Notes under the pieces: generated by a model
What the model was told of the DNA's origin: nothing
The model's database searches: none
Seen by the model: the letters and a program-made list of their open reading frames with translations, nothing else
Assembly: GCA_024653305.1 (NCBI GenBank)
Contig: JANLFW010000005.1
Coordinates: forward strand, 8,011-72,010
Reading direction: 5' to 3'
DNA from: Candidatus Acetothermia bacterium
GTDB taxonomy: Bacteria > Bipolaricaulota > Bipolaricaulia > Bipolaricaulales > Bipolaricaulaceae
Length of the DNA: 64,000 bases
Shown: in pieces, positions 13,434-32,962 of the stretch
Numbering within the stretch: the stretch's first letter is position 1
How the letters are laid out: every line of letters begins with the position of its first letter
Translations under genes and position numbers: made by a program

Positions 13434-13949
13434 ATGCGCAGGGTTGCGGAGTGGACGGCGACGGGGATTTTCGCGTTCGCCGTCTATCTTTTGCTCGCCA
13501 CGTTCACCGGCTCCCTCGGCCTGTGGGCCCCCGATGAGCTCATTGCCGGGGCCGTCCTCGCGGCGGTGACCGCCCTCGCCACCGGGGCCTTCCTGTGGGC
13601 GCAGGGCGGCTGGCGGCTGCTCCAACCCCAGCGCTGGATCCTGTTCTTGCTCTACCTCATCGGCCCGTTCCTGTGGGCGATGGCCAAGGCCAACCTGGAC
13701 GTGGCATGGCGGGTGATCACCGGTCGCATCCGTCCGGGGATCGTCCGGTTCAACCCCAACCTCCATACCGACTTCGGCCGGACGCTCCTCGCCAACTCCA
13801 TCACCCTCACTCCGGGCACCCTCACCGTGGACATCGACGACGACTCGGGCGATTTCTACGTGCACTGGATCAACGTGACCGACGAGTCCCCCACCCCGGA
13901 ACGCGTGTGCGGATCGTTCCCGAAGTGGGCACGAAGGATCGCCGAATGA
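13434..13949 (+). CDS. mbhA: Mbh hydrogenase antiporter subunit A (MrpE/MnhE-like)
   Basis: A 171-residue MrpE-family membrane protein: two or three N-terminal transmembrane helices, then a cytoplasmic segment with NPNLHTDFGRTLLANSITLTPG, the family signature. It belongs to the ion-translocating module of the membrane-bound hydrogenase, which resembles an Mrp Na+/H+ antiporter. The start ATG lies 9 nt behind a -10 box. First of 14 genes in the order known for Thermococcales mbhA-N; its stop overlaps the next start (ATGA). Confidence 0.9.
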   Translation: MRRVAEWTATGIFAFAVYLLLATFTGSLGLWAPDELIAGAVLAAVTALATGAFLWAQGGWRLLQPQRWILFLLYLIGPFLWAMAKANLDVAWRVITGRIRPGIVRFNPNLHTDFGRTLLANSITLTPGTLTVDIDDDSGDFYVHWINVTDESPTPERVCGSFPKWARRIAE

Positions 13950-14212
13950 TCGTGGCACTCCCGTTTGGCGTGGCGGCAGCGGTGCTCCTTGGGTTCATCC
14001 TGGCGTCCATGGTGCGGCTCGGGATCGGCCCCACCGCCGCCGACCGGGCGGTGGCCCTGGACACGATCAACACCCTGGTCGTGGCGACGATGATCCTCCT
14101 CGGGGCCGCGTTCGGCCAGGTGGTGCTGATGGATGTGGCCCTGGTGTACGCCCTGCTCTCGTTTGTGAGCACGCTCTACATCGCCCGCTACCTCGAGGGG
14201 GGCCTCAAGTGA
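13946..14212 (+). CDS. mbhB: Mbh subunit B (MrpF/MnhF-like)
   Basis: An 88-residue protein with three transmembrane helices, matching MrpF. The conserved GPTAADRAVALDTIN segment links helices 1 and 2. It is part of the antiporter-like module, with no known catalytic role of its own. It overlaps both neighbours by 4 bp. Confidence 0.9.
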   Translation: MIVALPFGVAAAVLLGFILASMVRLGIGPTAADRAVALDTINTLVVATMILLGAAFGQVVLMDVALVYALLSFVSTLYIARYLEGGLK

Positions 14213-14544
14213 ACGCCCTCATCTACGCGTTCCTCGCCATCGGGGCCGTGTTCAACGGCCTGGGCGCGGTGGCCCTGCTTCGGTTCCCGGATGTGTACAC
14301 CCGGGTCCACGGGGCCACGAAGTGCACCACGTTCGGGTCCATCTTCTCTCTCCTGGGGGTGGCGGTGTACGGGTTCGCCCAGGGCGGGGGGATCGGCGGG
14401 ACGATGGCCGTGCGCGCGTTCCTGGCACTCGTCTTCCTCCTCCTCACCAACCCCACCGGGTCCCACGCCCTGGCCCGGGCCGCCCACCGCGCGGGGATCA
14501 AGCCGTTCCGGGCGGTCGTCGACCGGTTGGAGGAAAGGCGATGA
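14209..14544 (+). CDS. mbhC: Mbh subunit C (MrpG/MnhG-like)
   Basis: A 111-residue, three-helix MrpG-family protein with the signature LLRFPDVYTRVHGATKCTT between helices 1 and 2 and a basic C-terminus. It starts at GTG overlapping the mbhB stop. Structural part of the Na+/H+ antiporter-like half of the hydrogenase. Confidence 0.9.
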   Translation: MNALIYAFLAIGAVFNGLGAVALLRFPDVYTRVHGATKCTTFGSIFSLLGVAVYGFAQGGGIGGTMAVRAFLALVFLLLTNPTGSHALARAAHRAGIKPFRAVVDRLEERR

Positions 14545-22682: not shown

Positions 22683-23229
22683 ATGTCCATAGAGCTGCAC
22701 GTCATCGTCCCCGTGTCCACCGATCGCTGGAACGAAGGCGTGCGCCAGCTGTGCCAGGCCGCCGCCGATCGGGACACGGCGGTGAACGTGGTCCACCTCG
22801 CCCACGGCCCGGAGTCCATCGAGTGCACGTACGACGAGGCGCTGGTCGCGCCTTACGTGATCGAGGCCGTGGCCGCCGCCGAGCGGGCGGGCGCCGACGG
22901 GGTAATCGTGTACTGCTTCGGCAACCCCGCGGTGGACGGGGCTCGGGAGGCGGTCTCCATCCCCGTCGTCGGGCTAGGCGAGGCTGCTGAGGTGGTCGCC
23001 TTCCTCCTGGGCGACCGGAGGGCGGGAGCTTGTCGCCCGTGGGGCTCAGGTCGTGATCCTAGGCTGCGGGTCACTGCTGGGGGTGGCGGATGAGCTGCGA
23101 CGGGGACTGGGGATTCCGGTGGTCGTACCAGCGGTGGCGGCGGTGAAGCTGGCCGAGGCGTACGTAAAGATGGGCATCGCTCACAGCAAAGCCGCCTATC
23201 CTCCTCCCCCGCCCAAGATCTGGCGCTGA
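22683..23229 (+). pseudogene. Asp/Glu/hydantoin racemase pseudogene (internal deletion plus frameshift)
   Basis: From ATG 22683 the frame encodes a racemase N-terminal half with the first catalytic cysteine in VIVYCFGNPAVDGAREAV and IPVVGLGEAAEVV. At about 23018 it runs into a nonsense tail ending at 23093. The C-terminal half continues in another frame: RELVARGAQVVILGCGSLLG, containing the second catalytic cysteine, then GIPVVVPAVAAVKLAEAYV to a stop at 23227-23229. Compared with the intact racemase at 31.8-32.4 kb, about 45-60 residues between the halves are missing. Deletion and frameshift together should make it non-functional. It lies just before the M29 aminopeptidase genes and was probably the first gene of that set. 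Confidence 0.8.
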
Positions 23230-23252
23230 ACACAAGCACGGGAGGCAGACCA

Positions 23253-24305
23253 ATGGAGATCGACGCGGAGACCATCCGTCCGGGAGTGGTGGGCATGCTG
23301 CGCGTGAACCTCGGAGTCCAGGCCGGGGAGTCCGTGCTCGTGGTAACTGACGTGCCGACGCCCGAGCAGTGGGGAGAGTGGCCTGTATCGCAGCTTGAGG
23401 AGGCGTTCCGGCGGGCGGCGTTGGCTCGCCGGGTGGCGGAGATCGCCGCCGAAGAGCTGCCGGCCTGTGCGGTGGGTTTCCTGGCCTACCCGGCCACCGG
23501 ACGCTCGGGGAGCGAGCCCGGCGATGAGGTGGCAGCAAGGCTGCGGGAAGCGAACGTGGTGGTGGCCATCACCTCCTTTTCCCTCAGCCATACCCACGCC
23601 CGAGAGGGCGCATGCCGGGCGGGGGCACGGGTGGCGAGCATGCCCCGCTTCCTGCCGGAGATGTTCTACCCGGACGGTCCGTTGGCCGTGGACTACCGCC
23701 GCATCGCGCAGGAGACGGCGCGGATCGCCGCCTGCCTCACCGGTGCCCGCGTGGCCACGGTCCGGTCTCCCGCGGGTACGGACCTCGAATTCAGCCTGGA
23801 GGGGCGGGAGGGGCGGGTGGACGACGGTCTGTACCTTCGCCCCGGCATGTGGGGGAACCTGCCCGGGGGCGAGGCGTACATCGCCCCGGTGGAGGGGACG
23901 GCGGAGGGGGTGCTGGTCGTGGAGCCGGGTTGGCATCACCGCCTCGTCGAGCCGATGCGCCTGGTGTTCTCCGGCGGCGCGGTGGTCGCCGTGGACGGCG
24001 GCGGGGAGGTGGGGGAACGCCTACGGGGCTTGCTGGGCCTGGGAGGCCGTCGACCCACCGCAGAAGAGCGGGCCCGGCGCCACCTGGCCGAGCTGGGGGT
24101 GGGGACGAACCCCAACGCGCGGCGCACGGACATCACCCTGGAGGCGGAGAAGATCAAGGGCACCGTGCACGTGGCCATTGGGGACAACGCACACATGGGC
24201 GGGGTCAACGTGGCCGACTATCACGCCGACCTCGTCGTCCCCCGGGCCACATTGCTCCTCGATGGGCAGACGGTCATGGACGAGGGGCGGTGGACGTTCG
24301 GCTGA
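23253..24305 (+). CDS. M29-type aminopeptidase-like protein (first copy)
   Basis: A 350-residue protein resembling thermophilic M29 aminopeptidases (AmpS/AmpT). Supporting features are the Gly/Glu segment NLPGGEAYIAPVEGTAEG, the ELGVGTNPNA stretch and the C-terminal metal-binding region GDNAHMGGVNVADYHADLVV with an HxD pair. These place Glu, His and Asp residues where the family binds two metal ions. There is no signal peptide, so action on imported peptides in the cytoplasm is likely. It starts 23 nt after the racemase pseudogene and is followed closely by a second related gene. Specificity is unknown. Confidence 0.75.
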   Translation: MEIDAETIRPGVVGMLRVNLGVQAGESVLVVTDVPTPEQWGEWPVSQLEEAFRRAALARRVAEIAAEELPACAVGFLAYPATGRSGSEPGDEVAARLREANVVVAITSFSLSHTHAREGACRAGARVASMPRFLPEMFYPDGPLAVDYRRIAQETARIAACLTGARVATVRSPAGTDLEFSLEGREGRVDDGLYLRPGMWGNLPGGEAYIAPVEGTAEGVLVVEPGWHHRLVEPMRLVFSGGAVVAVDGGGEVGERLRGLLGLGGRRPTAEERARRHLAELGVGTNPNARRTDITLEAEKIKGTVHVAIGDNAHMGGVNVADYHADLVVPRATLLLDGQTVMDEGRWTFG

Positions 24306-24316
24306 TAAGGGGGGAG

Positions 24317-25381
24317 ATGGAGCTCGCGCTGGGTGTGGAACCGACCGATCGGTACCTCGCGTTCGAGGCGGCCGGGGCGGCGCGCAAGCTGGTGGAGGAG
24401 GTGATGCTCGTTCGTCCGGGCGAGAACGTGCTGATCACCGTGGACACGATGGGTGACCGGCGGGTGGCGGAGCTGGTCGCCCAGGCCGCCTACGCGGCTC
24501 GGGCCGTCCCCACCCTGGTGGTCTACCCCACAAGCCCGGCCCCGGTGCTGGAGCCCCCGCCCCCGGTGGCCGGGGCGGCGGCGCGGGCCCAGGTGTGGAT
24601 CGAGCTGGCTGTGGCTTACCTTCTGCACACCGCCGCTCACCGGGCAGCCCTCGCCGGCGGGTGCCGGTACATTTGCCTCACCGGTATGGACGTGGACATG
24701 CTCGTGCGGTGCATCGGCCGCGTGGACTACCCGAAGATGCTCGCCCTAGGGGAGGCCCTGCAGCGCATCGTGGCCAGGGCCGATGAGGTGCGGGTCACCA
24801 GCCCCGCGGGCACTGACCTCGTGGCCCACAACCGCGGCCGGCGGGTGCGGCACGCGGGCAAGCTCGCCGACACCCCGGGCGAGCCGATCATGCTCGGCGG
24901 GCAGATCTCCTGGTGTCCGGTGGAGTCCACGATCGAGGGCATGCTTGTGTTCGACGGCGCCCTGTGGCCGCCGACAGAGCTGGGCCGGCTTGCCTCCCCG
25001 GTGGAGCTGGAGGTCCACCAGGGGGTGATCGTCGCCGTGCGGGGTGGGGCAGAGGCGCAGGTGTTCAAGCGGTGGCTCGATTCCTTCGCCGACCCCAACA
25101 TGTATCGCATCGCCCACTACTCTCTGGGGTTCAACCCTGGGGTGACCCGCCCCACCGGGCGGATCGTGGAGGACGAGCGCGTGTTCGGGTGCATCGAGAT
25201 GGGCATCGGCACCCAGGGAGCACAGATCGGCGGGCTCACCTGGCAGGCGGCATCGCACACCGACGGAGTGGTCCTCTGCCCGTCCATTTACCTGGACGGG
25301 GAACCGCTCGAGGTGGACGGCCGGTACGTGCACCCGGAGGTGGTGGAGGCCTGCCGGAACCTGGGCGTCCCCGGCTGCTAG
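24317..25381 (+). CDS. M29-like aminopeptidase/metalloprotein (second copy)
   Basis: A 354-residue protein with the same layout as the preceding gene: VRPGENVLITVDT at the N-terminus, SPAGTDLVAHNRGR in the middle, then CPVESTIEGMLVFDG, FNPGVTRPTGRI, CIEMGIGTQG and a final ASHTDGVV (HxD). The metal ligands of M29 enzymes appear conserved although overall similarity to the first copy is low, so these are divergent paralogues rather than a recent duplication. AGGGGGGAG directly precedes the ATG at 24317; the upstream extension lies inside the previous gene. It converges with aroM. A role in cleaving unusual peptides is inferred from the neighbours. Confidence 0.7.
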   Translation: MELALGVEPTDRYLAFEAAGAARKLVEEVMLVRPGENVLITVDTMGDRRVAELVAQAAYAARAVPTLVVYPTSPAPVLEPPPPVAGAAARAQVWIELAVAYLLHTAAHRAALAGGCRYICLTGMDVDMLVRCIGRVDYPKMLALGEALQRIVARADEVRVTSPAGTDLVAHNRGRRVRHAGKLADTPGEPIMLGGQISWCPVESTIEGMLVFDGALWPPTELGRLASPVELEVHQGVIVAVRGGAEAQVFKRWLDSFADPNMYRIAHYSLGFNPGVTRPTGRIVEDERVFGCIEMGIGTQGAQIGGLTWQAASHTDGVVLCPSIYLDGEPLEVDGRYVHPEVVEACRNLGVPGC

Positions 25382-25397
25382 GCGGGCTCCCCCGCCC

Positions 25398-26060
25398 CTA
25401 GACCAGCTCGGCCAGGGCCCGGGCGAGCATGGAGCGAACGAGGAGCACGGGGGCTCCGGTGGCCGCCCGTACCTCGCCTTTCATCCGTTCGCTGTACCCG
25501 AAGCAGTGGAGGAGGAACGCCGTCGCTCCGCGCTCGGCCAGCCCCCGGGCAACCGCGCCCAGGCGGGCCCTACCCGTATACGGGGAGACCGACGCTCCGA
25601 TCGCCTCCACCCCCCACCCCCGAACCTCCTCCACCGTCGGGGCCACCTGCCGCGGCGAAGGGACCAGGATCCCAAGCGGCCCAGGGAGGGCAAGGGCTGA
25701 CACGTACGATCTCACGAGAACATGGGGCACGACCACGGGAACCCGGGCCCGTAAGGGGGGAAAGGTCCCGGAACACAGGATCCCGATCAGCACCACGTCT
25801 TTTTCCACAGCGCGGATCGCTTCCTCCAGGCGGTGATGGACGAACTCCCGGTGTACCGTGACCTCTCGGCCGTCGGAAAGGCGGGTGACCAGGGTGCTCT
25901 CCTCCCCAAGCGGGGGATGGGCGGCAATCTCGTCCACGGTGAGGCCGTCCAACGCCCCGGCTTGCACGACCTCCACCTCCGGGGGCAGATGGCCACGGAT
26001 TTCGGGCACCACGTCGTCCCGGGGCGCCTGTCCGATCGTCACGAGGGCGATCCGTTTCAT
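25398..26060 (-). CDS. AroM family protein
   Basis: A 220-residue member of the AroM family, related to the Asp/Glu racemase fold. It begins KRIALVTIGQAPRDDVVPEI, the AroM signature, and has VLIGILCSGTFP and LLHCFGYS, each bringing a cysteine to the place used for catalysis by Asp/Glu racemases. The function of AroM is not established even in E. coli. It is the last gene of the regulator-importer-peptidase operon and overlaps the DUF1177 gene by 4 bp. A racemase-type reaction on a product of the pathway is plausible but unproven. Confidence 0.85.
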   Translation of the reverse strand: MKRIALVTIGQAPRDDVVPEIRGHLPPEVEVVQAGALDGLTVDEIAAHPPLGEESTLVTRLSDGREVTVHREFVHHRLEEAIRAVEKDVVLIGILCSGTFPPLRARVPVVVPHVLVRSYVSALALPGPLGILVPSPRQVAPTVEEVRGWGVEAIGASVSPYTGRARLGAVARGLAERGATAFLLHCFGYSERMKGEVRAATGAPVLLVRSMLARALAELV

Positions 26061-26986
26061 GCCTTGCCCAACGTTTGAAGGTGCGATAGCGGCCCATACA
26101 ACGCGAGCAGCCGCGAGAACTCCTCCGGGTCGTAGAACCGACACTCGCGGGAGGTGAACGCCTTGGCCACTTCCACGCAGAACCGAGCGGCCAGCTCCAG
26201 GTCGAGGGGGTGGTTGGCCCCGGTAGCGCACCCAGGCACGGGGATCGCCGCGGTGGTCGCTACCCCCACCACGGGGGCGGCGGTGGCAGTGGCGGGCTGG
26301 AGAATGCTGTTTAGGTGATGGATTCCGTTCCCGTAGGGGGTGATGTCCTGGGTGGTGATGGGGAAGACCACCGGCGGTTCCCCTGTGACATAGCGCATGA
26401 TCTCCAGAAGGTCCTCGCTGGTCCGCAGGATGTACCCTTCTTTGACGGTGGGGCTGATCGCGAACCCGCGGCGGTTGATGACCCAGTTGCCCTTGGTGGC
26501 ATCGACGGACAGAATGGCGTCCATGGCCGAATCGACCTCGTATCGGTTCATGGTGACCATGTCCACCGGGGCATCCATGAACGGGGTGGGCTCGTGGGGG
26601 ATGATGGGGGCGTTGGGACAGATGTGGGTGGCCACGAGCACGTCCCCGGGCAGAACGTCGCCGGAGCTGGCCATCCGTACCAGCTTGGCCGCGCAGGCTA
26701 GGGCGACGATGGCCCCGTCGGCATCGGACACAAGCCCCAGCCGACTCGGACGGGCCCCGACCCCGCCCAACCGCCCGATCACCCCCAGCGTGGGCCCACG
26801 GCCATGCCCAGGGATACGGACCTTGACGAAGTCGGTGCTCCCAGCCTCGCCGTTCACCCGCACCACCTGCACCTCCTCCGCCCCCCATCGCCGGAGCCAC
26901 GCCGCCACGTCGTCCCCCGACGCATGGGGACTCTCCAAAACCTCCATCGCTTCCATGACCTCACGCAGCACGGAAGCCACCTCCAT
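26057..26986 (-). CDS. DUF1177 family protein
   Basis: A 309-residue protein matching what is known of the DUF1177 family, which often neighbours AroM-type genes and peptide transport. Recognisable stretches are TDFVKVRIPG, HICPNAPIIPHEPTPFMD with potential metal-binding His and Cys, GNWVINRRGFAISPTVKEGY and VVGVATTAAIPVPGCATG. The His/Asp/Glu pattern could form a metal site, but no reaction is known. The start is the ATG giving MEVASVLREVME, which overlaps the end of the M20 gene by 26 nt. Assignment of function is not attempted. Confidence 0.8.
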   Translation of the reverse strand: MEVASVLREVMEAMEVLESPHASGDDVAAWLRRWGAEEVQVVRVNGEAGSTDFVKVRIPGHGRGPTLGVIGRLGGVGARPSRLGLVSDADGAIVALACAAKLVRMASSGDVLPGDVLVATHICPNAPIIPHEPTPFMDAPVDMVTMNRYEVDSAMDAILSVDATKGNWVINRRGFAISPTVKEGYILRTSEDLLEIMRYVTGEPPVVFPITTQDITPYGNGIHHLNSILQPATATAAPVVGVATTAAIPVPGCATGANHPLDLELAARFCVEVAKAFTSRECRFYDPEEFSRLLALYGPLSHLQTLGKA

Positions 26987-28223
26987 CGCCCTGCGAAAGA
27001 TAGTCGTGGATGAGCAACGCATACACTCTCGCGGCCTGAACAAGCTGCGCCACCGCCACCCGCTCATCGTATCCATGGATTCCTTGCAGATCTGCAGGAC
27101 CGAACTGGAGTGTCGGGATCCCGTGGCGCCGGAAGAATCGGGCGTCGCTCGATGCCCACTGTAAGACCGGCCGGGACGTGTCCCCAGCGACCTCACGGAT
27201 GATTCTAAGCACGAGCTGAACGAAAGGATGCGTGGGTGGGGTGTAATTCGCCTCGATCGGGTCGCGAAGAGGGGTGACCTCCACCCCGGAACCAGCTCGC
27301 TCTTCCACCAATTGCCGGAGGAGGTCGAGCACAACCCCCACAGGGACCCCGACGGGCACCCGCAAATCGAACTCGGCCTCACATCGGCTGGCAACGATGT
27401 TCACCTTATCCCCACCGGAAATCCGCCCCACGTTCACCGTGACATGGTCTAAAACTTCAGCCTGAACCTCAAGACCTTCCTCCCGAAGGATGGCCTGAGT
27501 TTCGGAAATCAAACGACGGGGTTCTGGGGGAATGGTCCACGGCCTTCCCCACAGGGAATAGACTGCTTCGATGACCTGTGTCATGCGCAAGATCGCGTTT
27601 TCACCAACAAGGGGCGATAGGCTGCCGTGGACAGGGACCCCTCGGGTCATGGCCCGCAACCATAGGGCCCCCTTTTGGCCGATGGTCGGATTGATCCCCG
27701 AGGGTTCGGCGATGAGGCACGCATCCCCCGTGAACCCTTGTTCAAGGAGCCAACGTGTCCCGTACCAACCCCCGGTTTCCTCGTCGGGGACGGCCATGAA
27801 CAGGACCTTGCCCCGCAGGCTGTCCCACCGCACGGCCTTGCTGAGGGCCACGAGGAGGGCGGCCAAGCCCCCCTTCATGTCGCTCGCCCCCCGCCCGAGG
27901 ACGTACCCCTCGCGCACCTCCCCGCCAAACGGGTCGAACGCCCACCGCTCGCGGTCGCCGGCTGGGACGACATCCATGTGCCCGTTCACGACGAGGCACG
28001 GGCCGGGGCCGAAGTCGAGCTCCCCGACCACGCTCGTCATCCCCGGCGCGGCGGAAAGCTGGCGGGCGGGGATCCCCGCGCGATGCAGGCGCTCCAGGAT
28101 GTACGCGGCGATCTCCGTCACGTCACAAGGCGGGTTCTCGCTGGGGAAACGAATGAGCTTGGAGCAGACCGTCGTCACCTCTCGCTCACAGTCCCAGCGT
28201 TTGATCGCCTCACGCCTGGTCAT
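26961..28223 (-). CDS. M20 family metallopeptidase (ArgE/DapE/ACY1 type)
   Basis: A 420-residue M20 enzyme with the two-metal site intact: VNGHMDVVPAG (His and Asp), GRGASDMKGG (bridging Asp), PDEETGG (catalytic Glu pair) and IAEPSG (metal Glu). A dimerisation domain follows at about 200-310 and the last metal His is in GIHGYDE. It removes acyl groups or splits dipeptides in the cytoplasm. Candidate roles are deacylase, dipeptidase or carboxypeptidase on compounds brought in by the neighbouring Opp-type importer. It starts 9 nt after the oppC stop on the same strand. Confidence 0.9.
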   Translation of the reverse strand: MTRREAIKRWDCEREVTTVCSKLIRFPSENPPCDVTEIAAYILERLHRAGIPARQLSAAPGMTSVVGELDFGPGPCLVVNGHMDVVPAGDRERWAFDPFGGEVREGYVLGRGASDMKGGLAALLVALSKAVRWDSLRGKVLFMAVPDEETGGWYGTRWLLEQGFTGDACLIAEPSGINPTIGQKGALWLRAMTRGVPVHGSLSPLVGENAILRMTQVIEAVYSLWGRPWTIPPEPRRLISETQAILREEGLEVQAEVLDHVTVNVGRISGGDKVNIVASRCEAEFDLRVPVGVPVGVVLDLLRQLVEERAGSGVEVTPLRDPIEANYTPPTHPFVQLVLRIIREVAGDTSRPVLQWASSDARFFRRHGIPTLQFGPADLQGIHGYDERVAVAQLVQAARVYALLIHDYLSQGDGGGFRAA

Positions 28224-28232
28224 GGTCCCTCC

Positions 28233-29084
28233 TCAAATGCGCCGTTCGAACCTGGGGTCCAGGACGTCCCGCAGCCCGTCGCCGACGAAGTTGAACCCCA
28301 AGGCGGTGATCATGATCGCAAGCCCGGGGAATGTGGAAACCCACCACGCGAAGCCGATGAGCCCACGTCCGTCGGCGATCAACGCCCCCCATTCCGGGAT
28401 CGGGGGCTGGGCCCCTACCCCAAGGAAGCTCAGCGCCGCTGAGGAGAGGATGGCCGCCGGCATTTCCAGCGTAGTGTACACGACCACCGGACCAAGGGCG
28501 TTGGGCAAGACGTGACGAAACAATATTCGTGTTCGGGAAGCACCCAAAGCGTAGGCCGCCGTCACGTAGTCCAACTCACGCAAAGAGAGCACCTGTCCCC
28601 GAAGGAGCCGGGTGAATTGTCCCCACCCAGTTACAGCGATGGCTATGATCATCACCCCAATCCCACCGCCCAACGCTCCAGCCAGGGCAAGGGCAAGCAC
28701 CAACCCCGGGATGGACCACACGATGTCCACCGCCCGCATGATCAGGCTATCAACAACCCCCCCCACGAACCCGGCCACCAGCCCAAGGATTCCTCCCAAC
28801 ACCATTTGAAGAACAACCACACCCATCCCGATAAGAAGCGCATAGCGACTCCCGTACAGCACCCGACTTAAAAGGTCACGGCCAAGCACATCGGTGCCCA
28901 TGGGGTGCGTCGCCGATGGCGGGGACAGCAAAGCATCGAAGTCCATGGCCAGAGGGTCGTACGGGGCGATCACGTCGGCAAGCAGTGCCGTAAGCCCCAC
29001 CGCGGCCACGAAAAAAAGCCCGACCAGGGCGAGGTGGTTACGCGTGAACCTGCGAACTGCCCGCGACGAAAAGAACTGTTTCAT
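28233..29084 (-). CDS. Peptide ABC transporter permease, OppC type
   Basis: A 283-residue permease with an N-terminal helix (about 17-38), HPMGTDVLGRDLLSRVLYG and the coupling loop DYVTAAYALGASRTRILF. It pairs with the OppB-type gene directly upstream (2-nt gap). The importer lacks its own ATPase genes. Confidence 0.93.
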   Translation of the reverse strand: MKQFFSSRAVRRFTRNHLALVGLFFVAAVGLTALLADVIAPYDPLAMDFDALLSPPSATHPMGTDVLGRDLLSRVLYGSRYALLIGMGVVVLQMVLGGILGLVAGFVGGVVDSLIMRAVDIVWSIPGLVLALALAGALGGGIGVMIIAIAVTGWGQFTRLLRGQVLSLRELDYVTAAYALGASRTRILFRHVLPNALGPVVVYTTLEMPAAILSSAALSFLGVGAQPPIPEWGALIADGRGLIGFAWWVSTFPGLAIMITALGFNFVGDGLRDVLDPRFERRI

Positions 29085-29086
29085 GT

Positions 29087-30025
29087 CTAACCGTAGCGGA
29101 TCCGTGGGTCAATGAGCGTGTACGCGAAGTCCACAACGAGGTTGGCCAGGACCGTCAACAGGGCGATCACGAGGACAATGCCCTGGACCACTGGGTAGTC
29201 TCGTTCCATCACCGCGTTGACAAGGAGCCTCCCCATGCCCGGCCAGGCAAAAACCGTTTCTGTAATCACCGCTCCTCCGAATAGCCAAGGCAAGCGCAGC
29301 CCAAGCAATGTGACCACGGGTATCAGCGCGTTGCGAAGGCCGTGGCGAACCACAACGATGATTTCGTGCACCCCCTTGCTCCGTGCCGTCCGGATGTATT
29401 CTTCATTGACAACCTCGAGCATCGCCGATCGGGTCAACCGGGTGAACAGGGCAATAGGGGGGAGCCCCAGGGTCAAGACAGGGAGAAGTGCGGATCTCAG
29501 TCCGGCAAAGGTCCACAGTGGTCCCCCCCTCCCGGAAATGGGGAGAAGCCGCAACCTCAAGCCAAATACCATCATCAACATGATCCCCAGCCAAAAGTAA
29601 GGCATGGAAACCCAAAACAGAGCGACGAACCGGCTGACATTGTCAACGATGGTATAGGGGCGCATGGCGGAGATGATCCCGATGGGGATCGCGATCACTA
29701 CGGTGAGGATCAGGGCGAGGATGGTCAGCTCCAACGTCGGGCCAATACGGGCCAGGATCAAGGTTGCTACGCGATCTTGGACGTGGATGGACAGCCCAAG
29801 ATCGCCCTGAACGACCCGGGTCAACCAGTTCCAGTATTGGACGGGGATGGGGTTGTCCAAGCCAAGTTCGGCCCTCTTCTCCAAGACCTTCTCCTCGGAC
29901 ACGTTGGGACCGAAGAGCAGGCGGATCGGATCCCCACTTACATGCATCAGGGAGAAGACAATGGCCGTGACCCCGATGAGAGTGGGGACCAGCATCAACA
30001 GACGGCGAACAAGGTAGGCTCCCAT
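29087..30025 (-). CDS. Peptide ABC transporter permease, OppB type
   Basis: A 312-residue permease that begins GAYLVRRLLMLVPTLIGVTA and contains the coupling loop EYIRTARSKGVHEIIVVV and the end segment DFAYTLIDPRIRYG, all standard for OppB/DppB. It lies between the binding-protein gene, from which a strong stem-loop separates it, and the OppC-type gene. Confidence 0.93.
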   Translation of the reverse strand: MGAYLVRRLLMLVPTLIGVTAIVFSLMHVSGDPIRLLFGPNVSEEKVLEKRAELGLDNPIPVQYWNWLTRVVQGDLGLSIHVQDRVATLILARIGPTLELTILALILTVVIAIPIGIISAMRPYTIVDNVSRFVALFWVSMPYFWLGIMLMMVFGLRLRLLPISGRGGPLWTFAGLRSALLPVLTLGLPPIALFTRLTRSAMLEVVNEEYIRTARSKGVHEIIVVVRHGLRNALIPVVTLLGLRLPWLFGGAVITETVFAWPGMGRLLVNAVMERDYPVVQGIVLVIALLTVLANLVVDFAYTLIDPRIRYG

Positions 30026-30035
30026 CCCTAGGCAA

Positions 30036-30068
30036 GCCCGGAGGCCGGGGTGGCCCCGGCCTCCGGGC
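30036..30068 (-). other. Intercistronic stem-loop after peptide-binding protein gene
   Basis: A perfect 15-bp stem (30036-30050 with 30054-30068, GCCCGGAGGCCGGGG) and a 3-nt loop, placed between the binding-protein stop and the OppB start. There is no T-run on the transcript side. It occupies the same place as the hairpins at 8.3, 43.5 and 48.2 kb. Confidence 0.8.
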
Positions 30069-30086
30069 CTTTCCCCCTTCCTTCCC

Positions 30087-31682
30087 CTAGCGCTTGTACA
30101 ACACCAAGGCCCGCATCAGCGGTGGTTGCCACGGGTGGGAGAACAGCTCATCGAGCCCGCCCACGTCGCGGCGGGCAGCAACCACGTTCACGTTGACCGC
30201 CAGCGGGACCCACACCGCCGACTCCACCACAATGGCTTGAGCCTGGATGAACGCGTCCCGGCGGAGCGCATCATCGAGGGCGTTGGAGGATAGATCGAGG
30301 AGGGCATCGATGGCGTCGTTCTTCCACTGCCCGAAGTTGCTGGAGCCGATGTTCACCGAGTGGGTGAGGAACGTGAGGTACGGCTCCCCCATCCACCACG
30401 TGTTGCGGAAGATGCCGAGGTCGTAGTCGGCAGCCCGCGCACGGTCATAAGTGGCCCCGACCTCAGCCAGGGCAAGGTTGACCTTGATCCCCACCTTGGC
30501 CAACTGAGCCTGCACGACCTCCGCCGCCCGCCGCCATTGGTCGACGTTGGAGAAGGAGATCAGCGTGAGCTCAAGGCGTTTTCCATCCTTCATCCGCACG
30601 CCGTCGCGGTCGACCGCTGTCCACCCGGCCTGTTCGAGGTAGGCCACGGACTTCTCGGGATCATACGCGTAGGCGATCTCCTCGACCCCCTTCCAATAGC
30701 CGGTGGTCCCTGGCCCGACAAGGCCGTAGAGCGGGAACGCGATGCCAAACCAGGCCCCCTTGACGATCTCCTCTTTGTTTATCGCATGAGCAACGGCGAG
30801 GCGAATACGGCGATCGTTAAACAGCTCGCGCTTCATATTGCAAACAAGGTATTGCACGCTGTACGTGGGAGCCATGTAAACCTGAAGATTGGGGTTCGCA
30901 ACCAGCTGTTGATAGCCCATGAGGGGGACGTCGAACGTGTAATCGATGTTCCCGGCCAAGATCTCCGCAAGCCGTGTCGCAGCCTCAGGGATGATGCGCA
31001 TGACGAGCTCTTCAGCGTGTGCTGGGCCACGGTTGGAGATGTAGTCGGGGGCGTGGTTGTACGCGTCGAACCGCTTCATGACGATCCGATCCCCGCGGAT
31101 CCAGCGGTCAAACCGGTAGGGGCCAGTGCCTACCAGGCCCTTCACCCCTACCTCCTCATCGGACATCGTGGCCAACCAATCCGCAGGCATGATGCTCGCA
31201 TGAGCATCAGCGATGTGGTACAGGGCCAGCGGTTTAGGGGTAGCGAATTTAAAGATCACCGTGTAAGGATCTGGGGTCTGGATCTCCGTGACCCCACTGT
31301 ACTTGGGGCCGAGGTAGTTCTCCAGCGGGGACAACCGGAAGTACCGCTCATAAGACGCCTTGACGTCCCGGGAGGTCATCTCTTGTCCGGTGTGGAACAG
31401 GATACCCTGCTTCAGGTGGAATACCAAGGTCAGCTTGTCCTCGGACCACTCGAACGAGCGAACCAATAGAGGCACGGGCTGGAAGTTCGGATCCATATCC
31501 AACAATGGTTCCACCACGTAGCTGAGGACCACCAGGGAGTGGAACCGGGTGGTCCGGTGTGGATCTAGAAAATCAGGCTCTTCCTGAAACGCAGTGACCA
31601 TCGCCTTCTGGGTCTGCGCGGTGACACCCAGTGCGACCCCGAGGATGCCCATCAGTACTAACAGCACTATACCCTTTTGCAT
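30087..31682 (-). CDS. Peptide ABC transporter substrate-binding protein (SBP_bac_5 family)
   Basis: A 531-residue binding protein with a signal peptide (MQKGIVLLVLMGILGVALG, cleavage near TAQ) and the family body: FLDPHRTTRFHS, LVFHLKQGILFHTGQEM and GTGPYRFDRWIRGDR. Context suggests that it brings in peptides or modified amino acids processed by the M20, M29, racemase, DUF1177 and AroM proteins. The ATG follows GGGGAGGAC. An 11-bp palindrome lies 12 nt upstream of the start. Confidence 0.92.
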   Translation of the reverse strand: MQKGIVLLVLMGILGVALGVTAQTQKAMVTAFQEEPDFLDPHRTTRFHSLVVLSYVVEPLLDMDPNFQPVPLLVRSFEWSEDKLTLVFHLKQGILFHTGQEMTSRDVKASYERYFRLSPLENYLGPKYSGVTEIQTPDPYTVIFKFATPKPLALYHIADAHASIMPADWLATMSDEEVGVKGLVGTGPYRFDRWIRGDRIVMKRFDAYNHAPDYISNRGPAHAEELVMRIIPEAATRLAEILAGNIDYTFDVPLMGYQQLVANPNLQVYMAPTYSVQYLVCNMKRELFNDRRIRLAVAHAINKEEIVKGAWFGIAFPLYGLVGPGTTGYWKGVEEIAYAYDPEKSVAYLEQAGWTAVDRDGVRMKDGKRLELTLISFSNVDQWRRAAEVVQAQLAKVGIKVNLALAEVGATYDRARAADYDLGIFRNTWWMGEPYLTFLTHSVNIGSSNFGQWKNDAIDALLDLSSNALDDALRRDAFIQAQAIVVESAVWVPLAVNVNVVAARRDVGGLDELFSHPWQPPLMRALVLYKR

Positions 31683-31694
31683 TTGGTCCTCCCC

Positions 31695-31705
31695 TTATGT
31701 CATAA
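31695..31705. promoter_or_regulatory. Palindrome upstream of the binding-protein gene
   Basis: TTATGTCATAA is an exact 11-bp palindrome just before the ribosome-binding site of the gene starting at 31682. It is AT-rich in a GC-rich region. It could be an operator for the XRE-cupin regulator encoded upstream; there is no direct proof. Confidence 0.3.
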
Positions 31706-31769
31706 AACTAACCCCATTCGGCCTTGCTTCTCCACCCCTAACTTCCCGCGAAGAGGTTCAACTGGACTC

Positions 31770-32417
31770 TCACCCCCTCCCGCTTAGGACGCACGTGATC
31801 GCTGCCCCCATGGCCACTACAGGGTCCAACACCACCACTGGAAGGGCCTGCCGCAGGGCCGCCGCCGCCCCCACCGTGCTGAACCCGGTGCAGGCGAGGC
31901 CGATCGCGCGGCAGCCCTGGTCGACGAGCCCGGCGGCCGCCTGGACCATGGCGTCCATGGCCCCCGGCAGATCAGTGGTCCGGTAGACCCCCTCCACCTG
32001 CCTCCATGGCACCTCGCACCCATGGAAGGCCCGCACGATGGCCTGAGGCACGTACGGGGTGATGGTGAGGATGCCCACCTTCGTCCCCAACGCCCGGCCG
32101 ACGAGCCCGAGGCAGGAACCGGCCCCAACCACGGGGATGGACAATGCCTCCCGCAGCTCGTCCACGCCGGGGTCGGCGGCACAACTCACGGCCACCACGT
32201 CCACGCGCGCAGCCAACGCTCGGCCCACCCGAAGGATCTCGGGGACTGCCTGCTGCTCCAACGTCCTGTTGTAGAGGCCGCCCGGGAAGCCGTCGATCGT
32301 CTGGGTGAGCACGGCAAGCGTTGGGAACGCCTGCTCCAGGATGCGGCCATGGATCTGCGCCTGTTCATGATCCAAGTTGCTAACGACGCGGATCAGCCCC
32401 ACTCTGGTCTTGGCCAT
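31770..32417 (-). CDS. Asp/Glu/hydantoin racemase family protein
   Basis: A 215-residue cofactor-independent racemase with the two catalytic cysteines expected for the family, Cys79 in AVSCAADPG and Cys176 in GLACTGFST, and the middle domain GTKVGILTITPY. The substrate may be aspartate, glutamate, hydantoin or another amino acid. It starts 2 nt after the stop of the XRE-cupin regulator and precedes the importer genes. Its broken relative at 22.7 kb probably belonged to the same pathway. Confidence 0.85.
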   Translation of the reverse strand: MAKTRVGLIRVVSNLDHEQAQIHGRILEQAFPTLAVLTQTIDGFPGGLYNRTLEQQAVPEILRVGRALAARVDVVAVSCAADPGVDELREALSIPVVGAGSCLGLVGRALGTKVGILTITPYVPQAIVRAFHGCEVPWRQVEGVYRTTDLPGAMDAMVQAAAGLVDQGCRAIGLACTGFSTVGAAAALRQALPVVVLDPVVAMGAAITCVLSGRG

Positions 32418-32419
32418 CG

Positions 32420-32962
32420 TCAGAACGTGGGCGGGCTGACCGCCCAGATCCCCACTGCTTCCTCATCGCCGGCGTTTTCGAACCGGTGGGGCTGCTCGCT
32501 GCGGAACGTGATGCTCTGGCCGGCCGTGAGCACGTAGGCCTTGTCCCCAACCACGATGCGGACCTTTCCAGACAGGATCAACCCACATTCAATGCCCTCA
32601 TGGATGTAGGCCTGGGCCCCGCTGCTTCCCCCCTTCTTGAGGCGAACCTTGAACAGGGCCACCTGGGCGTTGGGCGCCGAAAGGATCTCGTATTCAAGGT
32701 GAGGCGACACGATGATGCGGCGCCGCTGTCCATCGGCGAGGACGGTTTGAACCGCGGCCAGGTCGTCCTCGAACAGGTGGACAACGGGCCGTCCCAAAGC
32801 GTCGGCGATCTTCTTTAGGGAAGTCAGGGAGGGATTGATCTTCCCGTGCTCGAGCTTGCTCAGGTAGCTCTCGGACTTCCCAATCTTCGCCGCGAGCTCC
32901 TGCAAGGTCAACCCCTTCTGCAACCGCAACTCCCGCAACCGCTGACCAAGGTCACCCGGCAT
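32420..32962 (-). CDS. XRE-family transcriptional regulator with cupin domain
   Basis: A 180-residue regulator. Residues 5-60 are an XRE helix-turn-helix (LRLQKGLTLQELAAKIG, YLSKLEHGKINPSLTSL) and residues about 100-175 a cupin barrel (HEGIECGLILSGKVRIVVG, ITFRSEQPHRFENAG) that probably senses a small ligand. This architecture is common in regulators of amino-acid and peptide catabolism such as SutR and PuuR types. It is the first gene of the eight-gene operon, so autoregulation and control of the racemase/importer/peptidase genes are likely. The ATG lies 9 nt behind a promoter, so the mRNA is nearly leaderless. Confidence 0.9.
   Translation of the reverse strand: MPGDLGQRLRELRLQKGLTLQELAAKIGKSESYLSKLEHGKINPSLTSLKKIADALGRPVVHLFEDDLAAVQTVLADGQRRRIIVSPHLEYEILSAPNAQVALFKVRLKKGGSSGAQAYIHEGIECGLILSGKVRIVVGDKAYVLTAGQSITFRSEQPHRFENAGDEEAVGIWAVSPPTF

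Follow-up and report, generated by a model that had tools for sequence, protein, structure and literature searches.

Catabolic clusters that combine racemases with amidohydrolases are the nearest described relatives of the system reported here. One study reports that cyclodipeptide oxidase (CDO) clusters without a cyclodipeptide synthase are enriched in hydantoin racemase (PF01177), DUF917 (PF06032), AroM (PF07302) and peptide transporters (PMC11055893, Nat Commun 2024). Hydantoin utilisation involves a racemase, a hydantoinase and a carbamoylase. Hydantoin, allantoin and cyclic dipeptides are substrates of racemase-family enzymes (AllR, HydR and NozR), the cyclic dipeptides being those of NozR, a member of the hydantoin/allantoin-racemase subfamily (PMC12661438). 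A study of 2013 was unable to identify the enzymes that open diketopiperazines (PMC3852281), and the literature searched named no diketopiperazine hydrolase gene among the families of the cluster considered here. This cluster lies in a window of 64,000 nucleotides, the whole stretch that was analysed, on contig JANLFW010000005.1 of a Candidatus Acetothermia bacterium (assembly GCA_024653305.1; 1.59 Mb, 73 contigs, 95% complete). It is an operon of eight minus-strand genes (32962-25398) that encode an XRE-cupin regulator, a racemase, a solute-binding protein (SBP), DppB, DppC, an M20 hydrolase, DUF1177 and AroM, and it is kin to the known racemase and amidohydrolase clusters.

Both the operon and the linkage of its genes are real, and the linkage is widespread in bacteria and archaea, far beyond chance. 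We read the operon, with a probability of about 0.45, as a catabolic module that scavenges a small derivative of an amino acid, the alpha-carbon of which perhaps has the wrong configuration. The compound would most likely be cyclic, either a 5-substituted hydantoin or thiohydantoin or a 2,5-diketopiperazine.

A DUF1177 profile scan of 84,980 species genomes gave 247 loci. The best 80 were taken with 10-kb flanks and formed, together with the window, a set of 81 loci, the open reading frames (ORFs) of which were clustered and profile-searched locally. As these loci were chosen by similarity to the query and many contigs are short, the counts describe the sample and not the whole family. In 50 of the 81 loci, which come from many phyla, AroM lay no more than 10 kb from DUF1177, and it was mostly adjacent and on the same strand. 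Other partners within this distance were DUF917 (27 loci), SBP (26), M29 (17), racemase (17), OPT (14), M20 (12), NCS1 (8) and peptidase S51 (6), the latter in loci of the Pantoea, Erwinia and Burkholderia type. Transporters of the ATP-binding cassette (ABC) type alone were present in 24 loci, OPT alone in 12, NCS1 in 8 and both ABC and OPT in 2, with none in reach in 35. The gene order was IclR-SBP-DppBC-ATPases-DUF917-DUF1177-AroM-M29 in Neobacillus (L085), IclR-OPT-DUF917-DUF1177-AroM-M29 in Brevibacillus (L093) and IclR-OPT-DUF1177-AroM-S51-racemase in Izhakiella (L111). The first-pass annotation had proposed such a co-occurrence survey, in which a lack of conserved linkage in other genomes would have counted against it; the outcome spoke for the annotation.

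Co-inheritance was followed in whole genomes, with 100 genomes of the Bipolaricaulota and 200, drawn evenly, of the Thermoproteota, and with AroM counted as strong at E < 1e-50. In the Bipolaricaulota DUF1177 was present in 17 genomes and strong AroM in 19. AroM occurred in 14 of the 17 DUF1177 carriers and in 5 of the 83 others (Fisher 1.5e-10), and 11 of the 14 had adjacent pairs. Strong AroM was found in 11 of 17 DUF1177 carriers of the Thermoproteota, compared with none of the 183 others (Fisher 3.2e-14). The two genes were mostly unlinked there, lying 6-7 kb or >100 kb apart or on other contigs, so that this is evidence from phylogenetic profiles and not from mere proximity. These p-values are optimistic because of shared ancestry. 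DUF917 also went with DUF1177 in the Bipolaricaulota (12 of 17 versus 12 of 83; Fisher 8e-6), and 36 of 49 other DUF1177 genomes carried AroM somewhere. Variable gene content, with 21 of the 81 loci having none of six enzyme partners nearby, would suit accidental neighbours with unrelated jobs, but linkage in many phyla and genome-wide co-inheritance in two of them, even when the genes are unlinked, make such an accident hardly credible.

The genes named by the first-pass annotation were present where it had placed them (ORFs, Pfam and NCBIfam matches), and the overlaps of 4 and 26 bp, the short gaps and the few longer ones agreed with its description of an eight-gene minus-strand operon. An ATGA overlap of 4 bp joins the DUF1177 and AroM genes, and the 26-bp overlap lies between M20 and DUF1177. 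The other spacings are 2, 2 and 9 bp, with larger ones of 61 and 87 bp. The operon is convergent with three plus-strand genes, two for M29-like proteins and a second racemase gene (22683-23229). Family assignments were firm for DUF1177, AroM, M20, SBP, DppBC and XRE-cupin, and the two M29-like proteins were weak matches by Pfam (27.7 and 14 bits). The features are as follows.

32420-32962, minus strand: PuuR-like transcriptional regulator of the XRE-cupin type (HTH_3 and Cupin_2), with which the operon begins (Pfam/NCBIfam).
31770-32417, minus strand: Asp/Glu/hydantoin racemase 2, intact, with both catalytic Cys (SCAADPG, ACTGF) (PF01177, 80 bits; Cys columns).
30087-31682, minus strand: solute-binding protein, family 5 (Dpp/Opp/Nik) (PF00496, 277 bits).
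29087-30025, minus strand: DppB-type permease (PF00528/PF19300).
28233-29084, minus strand: DppC-type permease (Opp4C/Opp2C NCBIfam models).
26961-28223, minus strand: M20 deacylase/dipeptidase of the ArgE/DapE family (TIGR01910, 243 bits, cut-off 217.6).
26057-26986, minus strand: DUF1177, predicted Zn-exopeptidase fold without the canonical HxD and EE metal motifs (PF06675, 420 bits, cut-off 25).
25398-26060, minus strand: AroM, predicted two-Cys epimerase/racemase with the Asp/Glu/hydantoin racemase fold (PF07302, 214 bits, cut-off 23.8).
24317-25381, plus strand: M29-like protein of the H class (H..E..HxD), with a NicX-like three-ligand set without Ser302 of NicX (7cn3 NicX, 1.6e-10).
23253-24305, plus strand: M29-like protein of the E class (E..E..H..HxD), which fits the site of an M29 metallopeptidase (PF02073, 27.7 bits; 7cn3, 2e-8).
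22683-23229, plus strand: hydantoin/allantoin-type racemase 1, disrupted (blastn to L034; PF01177 over the first part only).

The structure of AroM was predicted with AlphaFold2 (AF2) from 33 aligned sequences, with a predicted local distance difference test score (pLDDT) of 95.4 and a predicted template modelling score (pTM) of 0.90. Its leading structural matches belonged nearly all to the Asp/Glu/hydantoin racemase superfamily and included maleate isomerase, allantoin racemase and OpaE. The model matched 2eq5 with a Z of 16.1 and a root-mean-square deviation (rmsd) of 3.1 over 192 aligned residues; this putative hydantoin racemase of P. horikoshii is also the nearest solved chain to racemase 2 (1.5e-43). 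The AroM model shows the pseudo-symmetric racemase fold throughout, and AroM has both catalytic cysteines, C101 and C191, which were invariant in the 33 sequences and kept in 50 and 49 of 53 in a wider set. It differs from the superfamily in being a separate Pfam family with an N-terminal TIGQ(S/A)PR motif of its own and no known substrate. A racemase-like predicted structure of AroM is already noted in PMC11055893, and the model is most naturally read as that of an epimerase.

DUF1177 matched its Pfam profile over positions 2-271 of 272. A comparison with PDB sequences found no relative, and a link to M20 or M42 at the level of sequence was rejected, the profile comparison being not significant (probability <1%). 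The AF2 model, built from 44 sequences (pLDDT 87.9, pTM 0.91), has the Zn-exopeptidase fold (Foldseek probability 1.00; Z 15.8-16.9 over about 220-255 residues). The best match was the TET aminopeptidase 5ds0_B (VIA Z 16.9, rmsd 3.3, 228 aligned), and further matches were M20, M28, M17 and 5-nitroanthranilate aminohydrolase. The register of VSDADG with ASDMKG in the M20/M42 profile comparison agrees with the fold. Ligand positions were mapped from the sequence register and the predicted secondary structure and not from superposed coordinates. DUF1177 shares with the Zn-exopeptidase superfamily (M20, M28, M42, M17) the predicted fold and two Asp residues, the bridging D83 (VSDADG) and D157, with which a later strand ends and which takes the fourth-ligand position by register; both were kept in 81 of 81 sequences. 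It differs at the other ligand positions. The first His is Arg, as the HxD position reads GRLGG (Arg in 74 of 81, His never), a conserved Glu-Glu pair occurs nowhere in the 81 sequences, the corresponding strand being THICP, and the last His is not conserved. G66, D83, D85, T115, D157, N162, D209, P212 and H219 were invariant in the 81 sequences and in 17 more from Thermoproteota, and H116, C118 and H126 were conserved in 80, 76 and 77 of 81. The first-pass annotation had suggested a metal site at HICPNAPIIPHEP. This segment is near-invariant in the 81 loci but replaced in some archaeal members (TNIS, THVT, PYKP), including Sulfolobales-like ones without AroM; an obligatory metal site was therefore rejected, and a metal site as such is possible.

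With the HxD and EE ligands lost and the two Asp and the fold kept, the model suggests two roles for DUF1177, either that of a hydrolase-fold protein whose site has been rebuilt or that of a partner without catalytic activity. In the second case it would be a degenerate hydrolase-fold subunit that binds the substrate or AroM, with AroM and other hydrolases doing the chemistry. The missing canonical ligands fit this, and strict co-inheritance with AroM would suit an obligate complex, but polar residues that are invariant or nearly so in bacteria and archaea (D83, D85, D157, T159, D209, H219) are unusual for a scaffold, and many genomes have DUF1177 without AroM. A non-enzymatic role is thus improbable.

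Separate from this question, Sulfolobales-like DUF1177 proteins (L127-L130), from genomes without AroM, have THICP changed to TNIS and an altered YGN..N loop, and their sequences suggest a subfamily with a different role. A Bipolaricaulota metagenome-assembled genome (MAG) has DUF1177 in two frames (G028:C193:2263-3053), by frameshift or sequencing error.

NicX (7cn3), a 2,5-dihydroxypyridine dioxygenase, was the only credible solved relative of both M29-like proteins. The first-pass annotation had described two related aminopeptidases; both genes are present and convergent with the operon, but they represent two distinct ligand classes and are not duplicates. The 27 M29 sequences that cover the ligand region comprised 13 of the E class and 14 of the H class, often encoded as a pair. 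The protein at 23253-24305 passed the Pfam cut-off (27.7 bits against 27) and has the E, E, H and HxD columns, which we take to be the M29 ligand positions. NicX binds Fe through His265, Ser302, His318 and Asp320 (PMC7910607). The protein at 24317-25381 keeps the counterparts of His265, His318 and Asp320, but the position of Ser302 is Gly by alignment register, and a Glu stands two residues before in the H class. The relationship to NicX and the two His and one Asp ligands of the H class would agree with degradation of a pyridine-type heterocycle, in which the H-class protein would be an oxidative, ring-cleaving dioxygenase. We consider this very unlikely, since the Ser302 ligand is Gly or Ala in the M29-like proteins considered here, a nicotinate-pathway deformylase or amidase was not seen among recurrent neighbours and most DUF1177 loci have no M29. 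In addition, many hosts of DUF1177 clusters belong to largely anaerobic lineages.

Racemase 1, with which the interval of the first-pass annotation opens, proved to be broken. Blastn against the intact congener copy in L034 (13720-14541; 93-95% identical) gave matches at 14541-14120 and then from 13961 onwards, so that 158 bp are missing between window positions 23018 and 23019. Through this deletion the protein lacks its middle part and the reading frame changes. In the L035 copy (13737-14476) the first catalytic Cys is missing and there is a frameshift close to the C-terminus; damage was thus seen in two of three relatives. Either gene decay or a MAG assembly error may be the cause.

The operon contains no ATPase genes for its Dpp-type importer. 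Four oligo_HPY (Opp/Dpp-type) ATPases are encoded in two pairs on other contigs of the genome (C14 and C3), and the ATPases may therefore be shared. Relatives of the SBP in the PDB bind peptides, opines, haem and nickel, and because these ligands are so varied the specificity cannot be read from them. By synteny the M20 gene occupies the slot held by DUF917 in relatives such as L038, and an XRE-cupin gene was in the same position in L034, L035, L038 and L040.

Some neighbourhoods had a different composition. In Aminicenantes (L065:11245-12211 and L071:2757-3709) an MNT-like nucleotidyltransferase and HEPN pair, resembling a toxin-antitoxin system, lies between DUF1177 and AroM. These small genes had been guessed by size to be CDOA and CDOB, and this support was dropped after the Pfam matches. 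Two tandem genes lie between the transporter and AroM in Maledivibacter (L091:18233-20586) and in another member of the Bacillota (L072:4660-6986). Those of L091, where M20 is beside the transporter, belong to the amidohydrolase family, and the L072 pair has the same size and place; they are possible replacements of DUF917. DUF1177 stood apart in the Bacillota loci L053, L057, L064 and L074, with different recurrent minus-strand neighbours. In one Bipolaricaulota genome DUF917 adjoins AroM (G041:C130:2712-4740), yet DUF1177 was detected nowhere in that genome.

The nature of the substrate was judged from the partner genes. DUF917 proteins of related DUF1177 operons are homologous over their full length to the NCBIfam families thiohydantoin desulfurase (297 bits, cut-off 440) and S-methyl thiohydantoin desulfurase (263 bits, cut-off 450) (NF058529, NF058532), but they remain below both equivalog cut-offs. 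CDOB, of the cyclodipeptide oxidase type, lies within the DUF1177 cluster in L052 and L054, and the order in L054 is CDOB, CDOA (nitroreductase family), C-N hydrolase, DUF1177, AroM and DUF917. The DUF917 homology and the clustered CDOB genes, together with the activity of NozR, therefore speak for a ring compound derived from an amino acid, which would be either hydantoin-like or a cyclic dipeptide. The resemblance to the CDO clusters without synthase extends to racemase, DUF917, AroM, Dpp and OPT transporters and peptidases; however, the families listed in the accessible part of PMC11055893 do not include DUF1177, and in most DUF1177 clusters, that of the window among them, CDO was not detected. 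The cluster has in common with hydantoin utilisation the hydantoin-racemase-type enzymes, an M20-fold hydrolase and, in some loci, NCS1 permeases, but no linked hydantoinase and carbamoylase were found in the cluster, and the M20 of the operon matches ArgE/DapE. An unlinked dihydropyrimidinase/hydantoinase-like gene is present in the genome (G000:C1:182242-183537, L131:5228-6562; 371 bits, cut-off 393), so that hydantoin opening need not depend on the operon.

The substrate might instead be a linear peptide or an N-acyl amino acid with a D- or iso-amino acid, taken up by peptide transporters, in which AroM or the racemase would invert the residue and M20, M29, S51 and DUF1177 would trim, without ring chemistry. 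The Dpp and OPT carriers, S51 in some loci, the ArgE/DapE-type M20, the apparently complete E-class M29 ligand set and the exopeptidase fold of DUF1177 are in line with this. On the other hand, in the literature consulted the characterised racemases of the superfamily act on free amino acids or rings and not on residues within linear peptides (PMC12661438), and hydantoin-like rings are indicated by the partners DUF917 and NCS1. A linear substrate therefore appears somewhat unlikely.

Several observations weigh against the reading as a scavenging module for a ring-shaped compound. The peptide carriers and peptidases (S51, OPT, Dpp) suit linear D- or iso-peptides equally well, and none of the proteins of the cluster has a known substrate. 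DUF917 (PF06032) was not detected in the window genome or in its congener (G026). CDOB occurred in only 3 of the 49 other DUF1177 genomes, the two clustered copies included, and PF19585 (CDOB) had no match in the window genome, a weak negative as control genomes were equally silent and the genome is 95% complete. The M20 protein fits a broad ArgE/DapE model with no pointer to carbamoylase activity. As racemase 1 is broken in the window and mutated in L035, one step appears dispensable. Sulfolobales-like DUF1177 is found in genomes without AroM, and the 21 loci mentioned above lack all six enzyme partners in their vicinity.

If the module does scavenge such a ring, import would be carried out by the Dpp-type ABC importer with ATPases encoded elsewhere, or by OPT or NCS1 carriers in other organisms. 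The two-cysteine racemases (racemase 2 and AroM) would then epimerise the alpha-carbon by 1,1-proton transfer. Amide (ring) hydrolysis would follow by metallo-hydrolase-fold proteins, with DUF1177 as the dedicated partner of AroM, and DUF917 or the M29 pair may add further steps in some organisms. The free amino acid would be released by M20, or elsewhere by a C-N hydrolase or peptidase S51, and control would be exerted by a ligand sensor, XRE-cupin or IclR. We infer the order of the steps, the reactions and the ring-shaped substrate; the mechanism is a supported hypothesis at the class level only. Of the pathway of import and stereochemical conversion suggested by the first-pass annotation, the conserved linkage and co-inheritance of the genes stand, with the chemistry at this conditional strength. 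The same annotation had called the system undescribed. This applies to the DUF1177-AroM core, the DUF1177 fold and the co-inheritance, none of which was found in the literature searched, but clusters of racemase, DUF917, AroM and peptide transporters are already noted in PMC11055893. A more specific proposal, which is doubtful, is that in bacteria and archaea DUF1177 and AroM form an epimerase-hydrolase pair by which rings of the cyclic dipeptide or hydantoin type are opened. DUF1177 would then be a metallopeptidase-fold enzyme in which D83, D157 and H219, with H116 and C118, make up a rebuilt active site in place of the HxD and EE ligands.

Both protein families are widespread, and in the literature searched DUF1177 has no established role and neither DUF1177 nor AroM a demonstrated reaction. 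Their co-inheritance, with the look of a two-cysteine epimerase on one side and of a re-engineered metallopeptidase on the other, makes of two uncharacterised families a single pair of putative enzymes that can be tested together. Should the pair open such rings, DUF1177 would be a candidate for an unidentified diketopiperazine-degrading activity. A cyclic dipeptide or hydantoin as substrate would help to explain the microbial recycling of degradation-resistant compounds and would provide stereo-selective biocatalysts.

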